64,000 bases of DNA. Origin: Pelobacter seleniigenes DSM 18267 (GTDB taxonomy: Bacteria; Desulfobacterota; Desulfuromonadia; Desulfuromonadales; Geopsychrobacteraceae). A program made the translations under genes and the position numbers. Below, piece by piece: positions 17,229 to 61,658 of the stretch. Below the pieces are notes generated by a model that worked only from the letters and a program-made list of their open reading frames with translations, was not told where the DNA came from and did no database searches. The stretch lies in contig NZ_JOMG01000004.1 of assembly GCF_000711225.1 (NCBI RefSeq), positions 310,001 to 374,000 on the forward strand, written 5' to 3'. Each line of letters begins with the position of its first letter. The stretch's first letter is position 1.

Positions 17229-17257
17229 TTGATTTTTTTTTGTGGTAGCGTTATTGT
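17229..17257 (+). promoter_or_regulatory. Sigma70-type promoter before the riboswitches
   Basis: TTGATT (17229-17234), 17-base spacer, TATTGT (17252-17257). Would start the transcript near 17264, just before aptamer 1. Confidence 0.5.
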
Positions 17258-17284: not shown

Positions 17285-17375
17285 ATATTTACCGAAAGGG
17301 CAAAGCCGGAGCAATCCGGTGACGCAAAGCCAACGGGTCCTTCAGAGTAAGGATGGCCGGGTTGCCGAAGAAAAT
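17285..17375 (+). ncRNA. GEMM-I (cyclic dinucleotide) riboswitch, copy 1
   Basis: Contains the class hallmarks: AAGGGCAAAGCC, the P2 stem CCGGA-GCAA-TCCGG with a GNRA loop, GACGCAAAGCC, a P3 stem around GGGTCCTT / AAGGATGGCC, and GGGTTGCCGA closing P1 (ATTT/AAAAT). The base aligned with G20 of the V. cholerae Vc2 aptamer is G, favouring c-di-GMP over cGAMP, but this lineage also uses cGAMP variants. Followed by its own terminator. Confidence 0.9.
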
Positions 17376-17400
17376 GCAGCTTTTAAGCTTTTATAGCTAG

Positions 17401-17441
17401 AAAAATGCTCATTTCGGCAGCGGAATGGGTATTTTTTTTGG
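17401..17441 (+). terminator. Expression platform terminator of riboswitch 1
   Basis: AAATGCTCATTT pairs with GAATGGGTATTT (with G-U pairs) around a CGGCAGCG loop, then T8. The loop side TTCGGCA is complementary to TGCCGAA in the P1 strand of aptamer 1. Confidence 0.75.
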
Positions 17442-17507
17442 GGAGGCAAGCGGTTGCCTCCGTTGAAAAACACCCAGCTCGTCAATTGTTGACGTGCTGA
17501 ACATGAC

Positions 17508-17606
17508 AGACAGATGTCTCCGAAAAGGCAAAACCGGAGTAATCCGGCGACGCAAAGCCACGGGTCCTTCAGAGTAAGGATGGCCGGGTTGCCGAAGAGA
17601 ATGCAG
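17508..17606 (+). ncRNA. GEMM-I (cyclic dinucleotide) riboswitch, copy 2
   Basis: A near-identical second aptamer: AAAAGGCAAAACC, CCGGA-GTAA-TCCGG, GACGCAAAGCC, GGGTCCTT / AAGGATGGCC, GGGTTGCCGA; P1 here is TCTC/GAGA. Position 20 (Vc2 numbering) is G by my alignment. Two aptamers in series can make the response steeper or act as a two-input gate. Confidence 0.9.
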
Positions 17607-17633
17607 TGCATTTTTTCCAGCTCCCCCGTCTAT

Positions 17634-17676
17634 AAAATGCGCTCATCTCCGGCAACGAGGTGAGCGCATTTTTTGT
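17634..17676 (+). terminator. Expression platform terminator of riboswitch 2
   Basis: AAATGCGCTCATC pairs with GGTGAGCGCATTT around TCCGGCAACGA-type loop, then a T-run. The loop GGCAAC is complementary to GTTGCC in the P1 strand of aptamer 2. Confidence 0.85.
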
Positions 17677-17712: not shown

Positions 17713-20700
17713 ATGAAAAGTCAATTCTGCAGAATGTCGGCTTGTGCCGGGCTATTGGTGCTTCTTTTTGCAACCACCGCTTTGGCCAAATCGGTCACCC
17801 TCTCCTGGGATCCCAGCCCCAGCAATATCACCGGTTATAAGATCTATTACGATACCCAGTCGGCCGAGACCCCGTTTGTCGGGATCGACGCTATCGAAGG
17901 AGATTCTCCGATCGATGTGGGGAATGTCCTGACCTATACGGTGACCGGTCTCTATGATGATGAAGACTATTATTTTGCGGTCACGGCTTATGATGGTTCC
18001 GGCAATGAAAGTACCTACTCGAATGTCGTGGTCAGTGCCGCGGTCGGAACCCAACCCCAGAACACGGCCCCGGTCCTGAACAGCATCGGCAGCAAAACCG
18101 TTGCCGAGGGGAGTCCCTTGGCGTTCACCGTCAGCGCCAGCGATGTTGACGGCGACAGTCTGAGCTACAGCGTCAGTGGATTACCGGTAGGGGCGAACTT
18201 TAACAGTTCGACCCGGGCCTTCAGTTGGACGCCGGGCTTTGGAGCGGCTGGAGACTATGCGGTCACCTTTACCGTGAATGACGGCAGTGCCACAGACAGC
18301 GAAACGGTGACAATCACCGTCAACAATGTCAACCAGGCTCCGGTCCTGAACAGCATCGGCGGCAAGATGGTCGCCGAGGGCAGTTTGCTGACATTCAAGG
18401 TCAGCGCCAGTGATGCCGACGGTGACAGTTTAAGCTACAGTGCCAGCGGGTTGCCCGTCGGGGCCAGCTTCAACAGTTCGACTCAAACTTTCAGCTGGAC
18501 ACCAGATTATACGGCCGCTGGAAGCTATGCGGTGACCTTCGCCGTGGCTGACGGACAGATCGTTGACAGTGAAACCGTAACCATCGTGGTTAATAACGTT
18601 AATCAGGCGCCGGTTCTCGGCAGCATCGGCAGCAAGATCGTTGCTGAAGGCAGCTTGCTGGCATTCTCAATCAGCGCCAGCGATGCTGATGGTGACAGCT
18701 TGAGCTACACTGCCAGCGGGCTGCCGAGCGGGGCGAGCTTCAACAGTTCGACCCGGACCTTCAGTTGGACCCCGAATTACACTTCCGCCGGCAGTTATAC
18801 GGTGATCTTTGGCGTAAACGATGGCAGTGCGACGGACAACGAGACGGTGACAATCACCGTCAGCAATGTCAACCAGGCTCCGGTCCTGAACAGCATCGGC
18901 ACCAAAACAGTTGCTGAGGGAAGTTCTTTGGCGTTCACCGTCAGTGCCAGCGATGTTGACGGCGACAGTCTGAGCTACAGCGCCAGTGGGCTGCCGGCCG
19001 GGGCGAGCTTCAACAGTTCGACCCGCACCTTCAGTTGGACGCCGGAATTTGCTGAAACGGAAAATACCCGTATCTTTGCCGTAGTTTTTGCGGCCAGTGA
19101 TGGCCGGGCTGAGGACAGTGAGCTGGTGACCATCAACGTCACCAACGTCAACCGGGCACCGGTGCTCAGCGGTATCGGCAGTCAAAACCTGGCCGCCAAC
19201 AGCGCTTTCAGCCTGACCATCAGTGGTAGTGATCCCGATAATAATGCGTTGACTTACAGTGCCGCCAACCTGCCGGCCGGGGCGACCTTTAACGCTAGCC
19301 TGAAAACTTTTAACTGGACCCCGAGTACTGCCCAGATCGGTAGTTATGCGATCACTTTCAGTGTCACTGACGGCAGCCTGAAGGACTCTGAAACAGTGAC
19401 TATGGTGGTTTCTGATAACAACTCTGCACCGGTGATCAGCGGTCAGCCCGCCAGCACCATCATGGCGACCTATCTCTACTCGTTTACGCCACTGGCCAGT
19501 GATGCCGATGGTGACAAACTGACCTTCTCCATTACCGGGAAACCGTCCTGGGCTAGTTTCGACACTTCCAGTGGGCGGCTCTACGGTAGCCCGTCCGAAA
19601 CCCAGACCGGAACTTACAGCGGCATTGTCATCGCCGTTTCGGATGGTGCCAAGAGTGCAGTTTTGCCGGCGTTCTCCATCGCCGTCAGTGCCTATGTACC
19701 TGTCGATACTGATCATGATGGTGTGCCGGACAGCATTGATGCGTTCCCCAATGACAGCAGCGAATGGCAGGATACGGACGGCGACCGGATCGGCAACGTC
19801 GCTGACCCCGATGATGATAATGACGGGGTTGCCGATATTTACGACGGGGCACCGCTGGACGCTTCTTCTTCCGCCTGGCATATCCTGGCACAGGCCGAAG
19901 CCGGAGGCTACATCAGTCCCGAGGGGGAAACCTATCTGGCTTACGGCGAATCCCAATCCTATCAGTTGACTCCCATGGCGGGTTATTACGTCAAAGACCT
20001 GCTGGTCAACGGTCGGTCGGTCGGAGCGGTCAGTACCTATGCCATTGACGGAATAGCGGAGCATTATGAGCTGAACGCTGTGTTTGAAGCCATCCCGACC
20101 GGGCTCAGCCTGAATCCCGTTGCTGAGGGGCTGGCCGGGATCGACCGCGTTGATGGTGGCGACGACAGCCATAACTATGTTGACGGCAAGCCGAAGCTGG
20201 CCCTTGACTACCGTTTCCATGTCACGTTGCGTGAGGCTTCGGTCACCGCAGACCAGCGGGTCGTTTATCTGGTCCTGGACAGCTATAAATACCGGATGAA
20301 CCTCAGCAGCGGAGCCCTGGTCAACGGTGCCGAATACGCCCTTGTCTCCAGGCTCGGCCCAGCCTATGCACACAGCTTTTATTTCATTGTCGAAGATAGC
20401 GCCGGCCACCTACTGGGTCGCTATCCCACCAGCGGCAGTCTGGAAGGCCCGGTCGTCGAACTGTTGGACGGGCGGAACCTGGTTGCTGTTGCGGCCGATA
20501 TCGACGCCAGAGCCTTGGATTCAGCCACTGCGTTCGGCAATAAGCAGGTGCAGGGCTGGTTGCCGGATGCAGGTCCGAAGGGGCAGTTCAAACTTGCTGA
20601 TTCCATCGGCGCCATTCGCAGCGGCAACGGCTACGTTATCAAGCGTGCCGACAGCGGCACTTTGCCGGATTTGAGCGGCTATGGCCAAATCACTGATGAG

Positions 20701-21009
20701 ATGATAGCCGTGCCGGTATTGCCGGGTTGGAATCTGATCGGCAACCCGTACGGCGGCGCTGTGGCCCTGGCTGATATCGATGTCCAGGTTGGGAGCGGGA
20801 TCCCGGTGCCTTGGCTCAATGCCGTAGCCGAGAATATCGTCGTCGACGGTATCTATTCCTATCTGGGCGAAGACTGGGGTGGCACTAATGAGTTTGCCAG
20901 CGCCGCTTCGGCAGTCCCGGCACAATTGATCCCCTGGATCGGCTACTGGGTCTATGTCAATCCTTCCGATGATGCAGTCACCCTGCTGATTCCGAAGCCG
21001 TTACAGTAG
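17713..21009 (+). CDS. Large secreted protein: FnIII, six Ig/cadherin-like repeats, calcium-type repeats
   Basis: 1098 residues. Signal peptide 1-25 (LLVLLFATTALA); a fibronectin type III domain (about 26-112); six repeats of 90-93 residues starting at 118, each beginning APVLxSIG and carrying VAEGS, SASDxDGDSLSYS, GLPxGAxFNSST and FSWTP (He_PIG/putative Ig type; copies 5 and 6 diverged); thrombospondin-3-like acidic repeats DTDHDGVPDSIDAFP and DPDDDNDGVADIYD (about 660-710), probable calcium sites; a roughly 75-residue beta domain (to about 795) and a C-terminal beta-rich region of unknown type. No LPXTG or transmembrane anchor. The tandem GEMM riboswitches upstream imply cyclic-dinucleotide control, fitting an adhesin or matrix role (inference). 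RBS is weak: GGGGAATACTAAATG. Confidence 0.9.
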   Translation: MKSQFCRMSACAGLLVLLFATTALAKSVTLSWDPSPSNITGYKIYYDTQSAETPFVGIDAIEGDSPIDVGNVLTYTVTGLYDDEDYYFAVTAYDGSGNESTYSNVVVSAAVGTQPQNTAPVLNSIGSKTVAEGSPLAFTVSASDVDGDSLSYSVSGLPVGANFNSSTRAFSWTPGFGAAGDYAVTFTVNDGSATDSETVTITVNNVNQAPVLNSIGGKMVAEGSLLTFKVSASDADGDSLSYSASGLPVGASFNSSTQTFSWTPDYTAAGSYAVTFAVADGQIVDSETVTIVVNNVNQAPVLGSIGSKIVAEGSLLAFSISASDADGDSLSYTASGLPSGASFNSSTRTFSWTPNYTSAGSYTVIFGVNDGSATDNETVTITVSNVNQAPVLNSIGTKTVAEGSSLAFTVSASDVDGDSLSYSASGLPAGASFNSSTRTFSWTPEFAETENTRIFAVVFAASDGRAEDSELVTINVTNVNRAPVLSGIGSQNLAANSAFSLTISGSDPDNNALTYSAANLPAGATFNASLKTFNWTPSTAQIGSYAITFSVTDGSLKDSETVTMVVSDNNSAPVISGQPASTIMATYLYSFTPLASDADGDKLTFSITGKPSWASFDTSSGRLYGSPSETQTGTYSGIVIAVSDGAKSAVLPAFSIAVSAYVPVDTDHDGVPDSIDAFPNDSSEWQDTDGDRIGNVADPDDDNDGVADIYDGAPLDASSSAWHILAQAEAGGYISPEGETYLAYGESQSYQLTPMAGYYVKDLLVNGRSVGAVSTYAIDGIAEHYELNAVFEAIPTGLSLNPVAEGLAGIDRVDGGDDSHNYVDGKPKLALDYRFHVTLREASVTADQRVVYLVLDSYKYRMNLSSGALVNGAEYALVSRLGPAYAHSFYFIVEDSAGHLLGRYPTSGSLEGPVVELLDGRNLVAVAADIDARALDSATAFGNKQVQGWLPDAGPKGQFKLADSIGAIRSGNGYVIKRADSGTLPDLSGYGQITDEMIAVPVLPGWNLIGNPYGGAVALADIDVQVGSGIPVPWLNAVAENIVVDGIYSYLGEDWGGTNEFASAASAVPAQLIPWIGYWVYVNPSDDAVTLLIPKPLQ
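18071..19429 (+). repeat. Tandem coding repeats in the secreted protein gene
   Basis: Starts of copies at about 18071, 18341, 18611, 18881, 19160 and 19430: period 270 bases, with one 279-base copy (the fourth). Copies 1, 2 and 4 keep near-identical DNA (for example CCGGTCCTGAACAGCATCGG). Recent duplication or gene conversion is likely. Confidence 0.85.
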
Positions 21010-21025
21010 TCTGAGGAGACAGATC

Positions 21026-22285
21026 ATGATCTTGATTCACTCAAAAAGAACGATTCACTGTTTTCTTCTCGGCCTGTTACTATTGCTGGCCGCCGGTTGC
21101 AATAACGGCGGCGGCGGTGACAGTGGCGGCAGCAGTGGCATCCCTACAACAGATAATTCGACGGACACTCCGCCCGTATCGGGAGCATCTCTGAGCGGTC
21201 AGGTCGCCGATGGCTATCTGATCAAGGCACAGGTATTTCTGGATCGCAACGCCAACCGGATTCATGATAACGGCGAGCCAATGAGCTATACAGCTGAGAA
21301 CGGCAGCTATGTACTCGCCGTTGAAGCCGGGGAGGGCGACCTGTATCCGGTTGTTGCCCGGGCTGAAGCCGGGGTGACCATTGATGCGGATAATGGCCTT
21401 TATCTCGAAGAGAGTTATGTCCTGGAATCGCCTCCGGGGCACTGGGTATTTGTTTCGCCCCTGACGACCTTGGTGAAATTGGAGCTGGATAAAAATCCGC
21501 TGATCAGTTTGCAGCAGGCTGTTTTGAGGGTTCGCAGCCAGGTGGGCATTGCCGATGAGGTGTCTCTTTTTGAAAATTACCTGACCAGCGCTCCGGGCAA
21601 TGCGGTTCTGGCCGAGGAACTGGGACGAACCCATCGTGCAGCCCGGGCGATAGCCGGGTTGATGGGGCAGCTGCGCAGTCTGGTCGTTGAAAATCTGGGC
21701 CGGGAATTGAGTGCAACTGAAGAGGAAGCCGTTGCCTACCTGCTTAGCGATCGCATCCTCAGTCGCTCCGCCATGATTGAAGCAGCACTCAATCACGAAC
21801 GCAACTATGGTGACGATCTGGATGTTGAGGGTTTGGTCAGTTCAATCCTGGCGATCATTGAAAATGAACCTATGGATGGGGAGGTGTTGGCGGACTATGC
21901 TGAGCGTATTGATCAGGGACTGGATAACTGGGATATGACCCCGCCGCAAATCCTCAGCAGTTCCCCAGCCCAAAGCTCGGTTGCATCAATCGCCACAACC
22001 ATCACGGTTGCGTTTGACGAAGGGCTTGATGAGGCGGTCATTGAGCATGGCGGCCTTGCACTGACCGGACCGAACGGCGTTGTGGCCGGGTCTCTTGTTT
22101 ATGATGCCGCCGGAAAGAAGCTCTCTTTCACTCCTGACCAATATCTGCTGCCCCATACCGACTACCAGGTGATTCTCAAAGCAGATCTGGCTGATGCCGT
22201 CGGCAACCGCTTGGGAGAAGAGAAATCCTGGAGTTTTGCCACCATCTTTGATCAGACCCCGCCCGCGCTCCCGGAATTTTTCTAA
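21026..22285 (+). CDS. Lipoprotein with carboxypeptidase-like and C-terminal Big_5-type domains
   Basis: 419 residues. Lipobox LAAGC puts the lipidated Cys at 25, followed by a Gly/Ser linker. Then a beta domain (about 55-120: SGQVADGYLIKAQVFLDRN ... GEPMSY) like a cleaved-adhesin/SdrD-B type fold, a helical region (130-310), and a C-terminal Ig-like domain (about 318-415: PPQILSSSP ... TITVAFDEGLDE ... SFTPDQYLLPHTDYQVIL) of the Big_5 kind. It starts 16 bases after the secreted protein stop (RBS GAGGAGA), so they share the riboswitch transcript. Likely surface-anchored partner of the large protein (inference). Confidence 0.85.
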   Translation: MILIHSKRTIHCFLLGLLLLLAAGCNNGGGGDSGGSSGIPTTDNSTDTPPVSGASLSGQVADGYLIKAQVFLDRNANRIHDNGEPMSYTAENGSYVLAVEAGEGDLYPVVARAEAGVTIDADNGLYLEESYVLESPPGHWVFVSPLTTLVKLELDKNPLISLQQAVLRVRSQVGIADEVSLFENYLTSAPGNAVLAEELGRTHRAARAIAGLMGQLRSLVVENLGRELSATEEEAVAYLLSDRILSRSAMIEAALNHERNYGDDLDVEGLVSSILAIIENEPMDGEVLADYAERIDQGLDNWDMTPPQILSSSPAQSSVASIATTITVAFDEGLDEAVIEHGGLALTGPNGVVAGSLVYDAAGKKLSFTPDQYLLPHTDYQVILKADLADAVGNRLGEEKSWSFATIFDQTPPALPEFF

Positions 22286-59706: not shown

Positions 59707-59724
59707 CAGCGTTCAAGATAAAAA

Positions 59725-59982
59725 GCGATGAAAAGGAGTAGTAGGCTGTTGATCCGTCTAAGAGAGCCGGTGGTTGCTGCAAACCGGTACGGAGAACGCT
59801 GAACTCGCCTTGGAGCTGCTGGAGTGAAGCCGGTGGTTGTGGTTAGCTACAGTCGTGAGCCTGCGTAAAGGGATAAAGAAGGTTTGTCGCACCACTGGTG
59901 TTGATGAACGAACCAGGGTGGTACCGCGAAGCTGAAGCTCTCGCCCCTGTATTTTTCATACAGGAGCGGGAGCTTTTTTTAT
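59725..59982 (+). ncRNA. T-box riboswitch, leucine specific
   Basis: Has the invariant T-box AGGGTGGTACCGCG (59915-59928), the stem I AGAGAG near 59761 with a GCTG apical loop, and a likely specifier CTC (Leu) at 59804-59806 in GAACTCG. TGGU in the T-box pairs with tRNA ACCA, fitting the discriminator A of tRNA-Leu. The terminator (59935-59982) has arms AGCTCTCGCCCCTGTAT against ATACAGGAGCGGGAGCT, 15 of 17 paired, then T7. Uncharged tRNA-Leu should stabilise the antiterminator and turn on leuA. Confidence 0.93.
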
Positions 59983-60119: not shown

Positions 60120-61658
60120 ATGAAACAGGACAATATCATTATTTTTGACACCACCTTACGTGACGGTGAACAATCCCCCGGCGCCAGTATGAATATCGAA
60201 GAAAAGCTGCGGATTGCCACTCAGCTGGAACGTCTTAACGTCGACGTTATGGAAGCTGGCTTTCCCATCGCTTCGGAAGGTGACTTTGAGGCCGTTAAAA
60301 AGATCGCCCAGACGGTTAAAAACTGTCAGGTGGCCGGTTTGTCCCGGGCCAGCAATATGGATATCGATCGGGCTTGGGAAGCTTTGAAATACGCCGGCGA
60401 ACGCGGGCGGATCCATACCTTCATCGCGACCAGCGATATCCATATGAAATACAAACTGAAGATGAGTGAGCAGGAGGTCCTCGACGCGGCGGTGGCCGCA
60501 GTCAAGCGGGCCAAAAGCTACACCCCGAATGTCGAATTTTCACCGGAAGACGCGACCCGCACCAGGTTGCCGTTTCTCGCTCAGGTCGTTCAGGCCGCTA
60601 TCGAGGCTGGCGCCACGACAGTGAATATCCCGGATACGGTCGGTTATACCATTCCCACCGAATATGCCGAAATCATCCGTTACCTGAAAGCGAATGTCAG
60701 TAATATCGACCAGGCGATCATTTCCGTTCATTGCCATAACGACCTCGGGCTTGCCGTCGCCAATTCACTGGCCGCGGTTCAGGCTGGTGCCCGGCAGGTT
60801 GAGTGTACCATCAACGGGATCGGCGAGCGGGCCGGCAACTGTTCCCTTGAGGAAGTGGTGATGACCTTGCGGACTCGGCAGGATATCCTGCCTTATGCGA
60901 CCAGGGCGGTTACGGAACAGATCACTCCGGCCAGCAAGCTGCTTTCAACCATTACTGGTCTGTTGATTCAGCCGAACAAGGCGATTGTCGGTGCCAACGC
61001 CTTTGCTCACGAAGCCGGCATCCATCAGCATGGGGTGTTGATGGATAAATCCACTTACGAAATCATGACTCCCGAGTCGGTCGGCCTGAACCAGAACAAG
61101 TTGGTTCTCGGTAAGCATTCCGGGCGGCATGCCTTCATCGACCGTCTCAAACATCTCGGTTATGATCTCTCCCGGGAAGAGGTGGATAAAGCATTTACCC
61201 GCTTCAAAGCGTTGGCAGACATGAAGAAAGAGATCTTCGATGAGGATCTCGATGCCATTATCGCCGATGAAGTGCTGCGGGTTCCGGAAACTTACAAGTT
61301 GCAGCAGATGAACGTCAGTTCCGGTTCTTTTGCCGCACCGACCGCGACGGTATCCATGGAGATCGAAGGGAAAAATAAAAAGACCGCGGTCATTGGCGAT
61401 GGTCCGGTGGACGCAACCTTTAAAGCGATTAAGAAATTGACCAAAAGCAAGGCGCCGTTGCTGAACTTTTCGGTCGGGGCCATTACCGGCGGCACGGATG
61501 CCCAGGGCGAGTGTACCGTTCGCCTGCAATCCGAAGACGGTCGGGAAGTCCTTGGACAGGGGGCCCACCCGGATATCATCGTGGCCAGCGCCAAGGCCTA
61601 TATCAATGCTTTGAATAAAATTGCCGGCAATCAGAAACGGATCAAGGCCGACCTTTGA
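60120..61658 (+). CDS. leuA: 2-Isopropylmalate synthase
   Basis: 512 residues; condenses 2-ketoisovalerate with acetyl-CoA, the first step of leucine synthesis. TIM barrel with FDTTLRDGEQSPG, VHCHNDLGLAVANSL (metal His), and the C-terminal LeuA allosteric dimer domain (about 390-512) for leucine feedback. AAGGAGC before ATG 60120. First of leuACD. Confidence 0.97.
   Translation: MKQDNIIIFDTTLRDGEQSPGASMNIEEKLRIATQLERLNVDVMEAGFPIASEGDFEAVKKIAQTVKNCQVAGLSRASNMDIDRAWEALKYAGERGRIHTFIATSDIHMKYKLKMSEQEVLDAAVAAVKRAKSYTPNVEFSPEDATRTRLPFLAQVVQAAIEAGATTVNIPDTVGYTIPTEYAEIIRYLKANVSNIDQAIISVHCHNDLGLAVANSLAAVQAGARQVECTINGIGERAGNCSLEEVVMTLRTRQDILPYATRAVTEQITPASKLLSTITGLLIQPNKAIVGANAFAHEAGIHQHGVLMDKSTYEIMTPESVGLNQNKLVLGKHSGRHAFIDRLKHLGYDLSREEVDKAFTRFKALADMKKEIFDEDLDAIIADEVLRVPETYKLQQMNVSSGSFAAPTATVSMEIEGKNKKTAVIGDGPVDATFKAIKKLTKSKAPLLNFSVGAITGGTDAQGECTVRLQSEDGREVLGQGAHPDIIVASAKAYINALNKIAGNQKRIKADL

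Follow-up and report, generated by a model that had tools for sequence, protein, structure and literature searches.

Two c-di-GMP-I riboswitches in series, with a predicted OFF sign, ahead of a conserved surface-protein operon in Desulfuromonadales

The systems closest to the locus described here are other riboswitches of the GEMM-I (c-di-GMP-I) family. According to the passages of PMC9262584 that deal with switching, the aptamer and the terminator of Cd1, an OFF-switch, coexist and compete with an antiterminator, whereas in the ON-switch pilM they are mutually exclusive. As to the ligand, an in-line probing comparison in the relevant section of PMC9481103 associates G at the position-20 contact with c-di-GMP and A with cGAMP. 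The survey part of the same paper counts 347 doublets and 12 triplets of c-di-GMP-I, making this the commonest same-class tandem, while tandem GEMM-Ib units in G. sulfurreducens have also been published already (PMC6456294, in its passages on that organism), and control of genes for FN3-domain proteins by GEMM in Geobacter and Geobacteraceae has been in print since 2010 (PMC2996986, in the passages on such genes).

The window, i.e. the whole stretch of 64,000 nucleotides that was analysed, comes from a genome of 5.09 Mb in 6 contigs, and contains two complete GEMM-I aptamers, each with a terminator, before the gene of an exported repeat protein. This confirms what had been noticed in a preliminary description of the same DNA. 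The features on which the argument turns are the following.

17229–17257, plus strand: candidate sigma-70-like promoter, TTGATT-17-TATTGT, agreeing with the consensus at 8 of 12 positions and lying about 31 bases upstream of unit 1
17289–17369, plus strand: unit 1 c-di-GMP-I (GEMM-I) aptamer, matching RF01051 at 65.8 bits (E 1.2e-10 over the 64-kb window)
17361–17370, plus strand: GUUGCCGAAG, strand A of the unit 1 switch; can pair without a break over 10 bp with 17412–17421, G-U pairs being counted, a length reached by 0 of 1000 shuffles
17402–17439, plus strand: unit 1 terminator and U tract; stem 17402–17435, -16.3 kcal/mol, with an apex that includes the A-complementary 17412–17421
17442–17461, plus strand: extra linker hairpin (GGAGGCAA/TTGCCTCC), read from the sequence
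17475–17499, plus strand: second extra linker hairpin or palindrome (CAGCtCGTCAA/TTGACGtGCTG), read from the sequence
17518–17597, plus strand: unit 2 c-di-GMP-I (GEMM-I) aptamer, matching RF01051 at 70.4 bits when the own genome is searched (C4:327517-327596)
17588–17614, plus strand: switching strand A of unit 2 with its extension; GUUGCCG at 17588–17594 complements 17650–17656, a 7-bp apex helix reached by 36 of 1000 shuffles
17634–17674, plus strand: unit 2 terminator and U tract; stem 17634–17672, -24.1 kcal/mol, a 16-bp inverted repeat
17713–21009, plus strand: gene 1, exported protein of 1098 aa with an FN3 domain and six He_PIG/cadherin-like repeats (PF05345 8.3e-84, PF00041 2.5e-10, and translation)
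21026–22285, plus strand: gene 2, lipoprotein-like, 419 aa, with a Big_5 domain (PF13205 4.5e-17), 16 bases past gene 1

The check that had been proposed for the aptamers, a search with the GEMM-I covariance model, puts both units (65.8 and 70.4 bits) above the RF01051 gathering score of 35 bits, and hence within the family, and each is followed by its own stem (-16.3 and -24.1 kcal/mol, respectively). It is this covariance score that constitutes the evidence for the aptamers: folded alone with nearest-neighbour energies they are not unusually stable (shuffle z of -0.97 for unit 1 and -2.07 for unit 2), such modest values being expected because an aptamer of this kind is held by tertiary contacts and by its ligand. 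Aligned with each other, the units are identical at 75 of 81 bases, with an additional A in unit 1, where P3 joins (GCCAACGGG), that none of the other listed units has. The secreted repeat protein downstream is likewise borne out, Pfam finding FN3 and He_PIG/cadherin-like repeats, although “giant”, as it had been called, overstates a length of 1098 aa. In cmscan the best model for unit 2 is RF03167, at 64.3 bits. Its assignment to the c-di-GMP-I-GGC variant was nevertheless rejected, as both units read GACGCAA, the model consensus being GACGCGAA, and the marker base is A, not G; the label is in any case uninformative, since GGC is also the best-scoring model for several A20 copies of this genome.

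Positions 20, 47 and 92, the ligand contacts in Vc2 numbering, were placed through the Rfam alignment. Both units carry G20, A47 and C92, together with G21-C46 and C22-G45, and c-di-GMP is therefore the expected ligand of both on the strength of these residues. The preliminary description had also given base 20 as G in both units, which the alignment upholds, and had added the caution that the family in this lineage includes cGAMP sensors; this was reasonable for the lineage, the genome having A20 copies, but carries less weight for the window itself, where both units have the c-di-GMP residues. That one or both of them should sense cGAMP instead is very unlikely. Three to six of the other GEMM-I copies in the genome are A20, and cGAMP signalling is used in the lineage; on the other hand, the A20 of the GEMM-Ib type is replaced by G in both window units, in the G20 plus G21-C46 arrangement, and it is G that goes with c-di-GMP and A with cGAMP in the relevant section of PMC9481103. 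The genome as a whole has 11 matches to RF01051, 10 of them over the cut-off: L001–L003 and L005 are G20 copies, L004, L006 and L007 are A20 copies, and in L008, L009 and L010 A20 is combined with an exchanged pair, C21-G46, two of these three also standing in tandem at a distance of 140 bases.

Some further RNA elements of this genome may be mentioned here. A second tandem GEMM-I pair (L054, C2:717484-717700) is A20 with C21-G46, its units lying 140 bases apart with terminators formed from the aptamer 3' strand (ON-type). Two other A20 copies (L057 and L058) have an ordinary P1b and separate terminators with an A:T complement, and might possibly be OFF-switches responding to cGAMP, which would give them the reverse sign of the Geobacter members known so far. 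Yet another (L060, C2:626758-626833), with A20, U22 and A45, precedes a protein with CxxCH heme-type motifs, and no terminator was called for it. Within the window there is also a T-box leader at 59719–59951 (123.3 bits), upstream of a 512-aa ORF at 60120–61658.

In both units of the pair the terminator begins 33–37 bases past the last base of the aptamer and does not overlap it. A consensus terminator scanner lists the second terminator and not the first; the dinucleotide-shuffle z of the platform stretches is -3.56 for unit 1 and -4.40 for unit 2. The 3' strand of the aptamer (A, typically GUUGCCGAAG) complements the 5' arm and apex of the terminator (T, typically CUUCGGCAAC). In unit 2 the apex helix alone is not convincing; the extension GUGCAUUUU at 17606–17614, as read from the sequence, pairs in addition with AAAAUGCGC at 17634–17642, in the 5' arm of the terminator, and the A:T duplex of this unit comes to -27.6 kcal/mol. 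Both hallmarks of an OFF-switch of the Cd1 kind, namely a separate terminator and an antiterminator using the aptamer 3' strand, are thus present, more strongly in unit 1 than in unit 2.

The same complementarity was surveyed at 12 tandem and 4 single loci of the same gene family, 28 units in all. An A:T helix of at least 7 contiguous pairs is found in 25 of the 28 and is lacking in 3, all 10 pairs being present in 17, and for 21 units no more than 10 of 1000 shuffles reach the observed length. Changes matched on both sides occur in unit 2 of L067 (GUUACCGAAG in A, CUUCGGUAAC in T) and in L017 (GUUGUCGAAG in A, CUUCGAC in T); others are one-sided and lead to G-U. Own A:T pairs are modestly better than swapped ones (-22.0 as against -20.0 kcal/mol), a difference reached by 0 of 20000 permutations with relatedness uncontrolled, and many own pairs are not ranked first in this comparison. 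The set used for A:T folding and energies was made up without the units of L049 and L059 and those with no terminator call (L054, L060).

Because the topology of the pair is that of Cd1 and not that of pilM, the pair is predicted to be OFF, and the most probable reading of the locus is that two c-di-GMP-I riboswitches stand in series in one 5' leader, through which c-di-GMP turns the operon off. Without c-di-GMP, A would pair with T, so that the terminator is blocked and RNA polymerase reads into the FN3/Ig-repeat and lipoprotein genes; once the aptamer has bound c-di-GMP, it would keep A and T would pair with the 3' arm of the terminator (H), so that transcription stops. The sign is the least certain step in this, as it would follow by analogy from the published topology of Cd1 (in the passages of PMC9262584 on that switch).

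How terminator topology goes with aptamer type was tallied by script over the related units, in counts that are incomplete since the search pattern missed some units. As a positive control, A20 units of the CU/GG type (from the Geobacter side and from the own genome) form their terminator from the aptamer 3' strand in 12 of 14 cases, one of the remainder being unclassified and one called separate. Among G20 units of the GC/GC type the terminator is separate in 36 of 42 and overlapping in 6 of 42; when the sequences of these last were read, a separate terminator of the usual sort was seen farther downstream in L019, L039, L048 and L050, while the call for L049 and L124 was left undecided. At the loci with FN3 genes, aptamer and terminator are separate in every unit. 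Six of seven A20 units of the GC/GC type, including L004 and L007 of the own genome, also have separate terminators. A clean rule equating A20 with ON and G20 with OFF was therefore rejected: only the CU/GG type goes with overlap, and base 20 alone does not control the topology.

An ON sign, in which the same two c-di-GMP-I units would favour read-through with ligand bound and the surface protein would go up at high c-di-GMP, is unlikely. In its favour, c-di-GMP often raises the level of surface proteins, and another point is the minimum-energy fold of unit 2 without ligand, which buries A in the aptamer and could block the antiterminator in the ligand-free state; the cGAMP members of the family in Geobacter are ON as well (PMC6456294, PMC9262584, in the passages on those members). 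However, the known ON members use the aptamer 3' strand in the terminator, while the terminators in the window lie 33–37 bases on and are compatible with the aptamer, and closing the aptamer raises the unit 1 terminator in a folding model.

This model, although crude, bears differently on the two units. For the half-transcribed terminator without ligand, the gain of A:T pairing over separate folding ranges from 2.8 to 10.7 kcal/mol over 30 units, and is 9.7 kcal/mol in unit 1 and 2.9 kcal/mol in unit 2. At full length the terminator fraction of unit 1 is 0.03 without ligand (A:T being kept) and 1.00 with the aptamer closed, so that for this unit the model lends the predicted OFF behaviour strong support. 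In unit 2 the corresponding fractions are 0.95 and 0.97; with the aptamer and P1 closed, T:H pairing sets in earlier by a few bases (3' end between 17660 and 17664), and much A:T pairing remains. Since the static terminator of unit 2 wins with or without ligand, any effect of the ligand there would have to be kinetic: the folding support for OFF is weak in this unit, for which the prediction draws on anatomy and homology.

That such tandems are rare, as had been claimed, does not hold. Apart from the 347 doublets counted in the survey part of PMC9481103, a search of 41 genomes (own included) gave at least 14 further pairs, 221–282 bases apart, in 12 related genomes. Of these, 13 pairs were fetched for gene context, and the gene of an exported FN3/Ig-repeat protein follows 9 of the 13 (L041–L047, L050 and L053), with the lipoprotein gene next in 8 of the 9; in L041 the sequence ends within the first gene. 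The lipoprotein is a conserved partner, with 41–50% identity in 8 relatives. A scan starting from lipoprotein alignments, confined to matches with full-length homology (thus leaving out L079 onward, except L096 and L100), gave 20 relatives that were checked against Rfam: c-di-GMP-I units are present in all 13 loci with at least 5.3 kb upstream (9 tandem, 4 single), L075 has one unit, at a contig edge, and L068, L069, L073, L074, L077 and L078, each with less than 2.4 kb upstream, gave no riboswitch match. As 7 of these 9 tandem loci lie on contigs that, judged by their length, are already among the fetched pairs, the number of distinct tandem loci with the same kind of target gene is at least 12, window included. 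The locus is present in Desulfuromonadales assemblies, e.g. of Desulfuromusa and Pelovirga. A literature search found no description of the window's tandem locus or its sign, which is weak evidence of absence, the founding cGAMP papers lying outside its scope; nor did it find a paper combining Desulfuromonas, c-di-GMP and riboswitch.

Over 9 loci including the window, mean identity is 0.72 among first units and 0.74 among second units, as against 0.65 between first and second units across loci; the separation is absent in L041, L042 and L044 (0.72, 0.79 and 0.77). The two units therefore form separate lineages in most loci, implying a duplication that is old there and has been homogenised or renewed in some. 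It is very unlikely that unit 1 is only a remnant, or a late copy that does nothing by itself. A single unit does suffice at 4 of the 13 loci with enough upstream sequence, but first units are closer to each other across loci than to second units, and unit 1 has kept both its terminator and its A:T complement.

Around and between the units, a few other sequences deserve comment. The candidate promoter at 17229–17257 scores below the threshold of a consensus scanner; a TTGA-type -35 with 17-nt spacing is found in a similar place in several relatives. The two extra hairpins (17442–17461 and 17475–17499) fill the linker of the window from the first terminator to the second aptamer, and the idea that this linker is a mobile or repeated element was dropped, as it occurs only once in the genome. 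At 8 of the 12 tandem loci (L043, L045, L046, L047, L050, L053, L067 and L070) an extended -10-like motif (TGGTAAAAT, TGCTATAAT or similar) lies just past the first terminator in a near-constant place, shuffles leading one to expect 3.1 loci with a match anywhere in the linker; it is absent from the linkers of the window and of L041, L042 and L044. An internal promoter is one possibility, and RNA started there would meet unit 2 only.

If both units are indeed OFF, polymerase would have to pass both in order to reach the operon, and since it must escape each in turn, repression would be tighter and steeper, and would begin at lower c-di-GMP, than with a single unit. Whether the units instead differ in affinity, so as to give two thresholds and not one steep switch, is a possibility that may be entertained, though it is on the doubtful side. 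Unit 1 has the extra A at its P3 junction, a weaker terminator (-16.3 as against -24.1 kcal/mol) and a larger A:T gain without ligand, and the two units are distinct lineages across loci; the bases of the binding core, however, are identical in both. As to function, the preliminary description had seen a fit with cyclic-dinucleotide control of attachment, which an OFF topology would turn round: the protein would be lowered as c-di-GMP rises, and the predicted sign thus reverses the first interpretation, the surface operon being made at low c-di-GMP. A wider scheme is offered tentatively, as rather less than an even bet: in the same Desulfuromonadales cell, c-di-GMP copies with separate terminators would be OFF and classical GEMM-Ib cGAMP copies with aptamer-overlapping terminators ON, the ancient tandem acting as a digital repressor of a conserved outer-surface operon, with coats swapped according to the prevailing dinucleotide. 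With ON-type cGAMP copies in the same genome to set against the pair, this two-signal model is directly testable, and a conserved natural tandem of c-di-GMP-I with many orthologues should be useful for testing why two copies are kept.

Set beside known systems, the locus has the make-up of a pseudo-cooperative tandem, with two aptamers of the same class, and a platform for each, in one leader. The tandem c-di-GMP-I riboswitches in the survey part of PMC9481103 (including the B. thuringiensis triplet cited there) likewise combine independent aptamers of a single class, each followed by a terminator, ahead of one gene; unlike them, the window pair is conserved across a family together with one gene pair, and its predicted sign is OFF. 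Cd1 of C. difficile, as treated in the passages of PMC9262584, resembles it in having a P:A aptamer, an A:T antiterminator and a T:H terminator, of which aptamer and terminator can coexist, but is a single unit and stands before flagellar genes. The pilM/GEMM-Ib riboswitches of Geobacter share the aptamer fold, the lineage and sometimes (omcAHG) the tandem arrangement, but in the relevant parts of PMC9262584 and PMC6456294 they respond to cGAMP, have A20, include the aptamer 3' strand in the terminator and are ON. The GEMM riboswitches of G. bemidjiensis, in the passages of PMC2996986, also precede genes for FN3-domain surface-type proteins, tandem units and sign being absent from those passages, whereas the window has a tandem that is predicted to be OFF. 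The present analysis adds to this that the pair is conserved among orthologous loci and is predicted to be OFF; the kind of system is otherwise ordinary.
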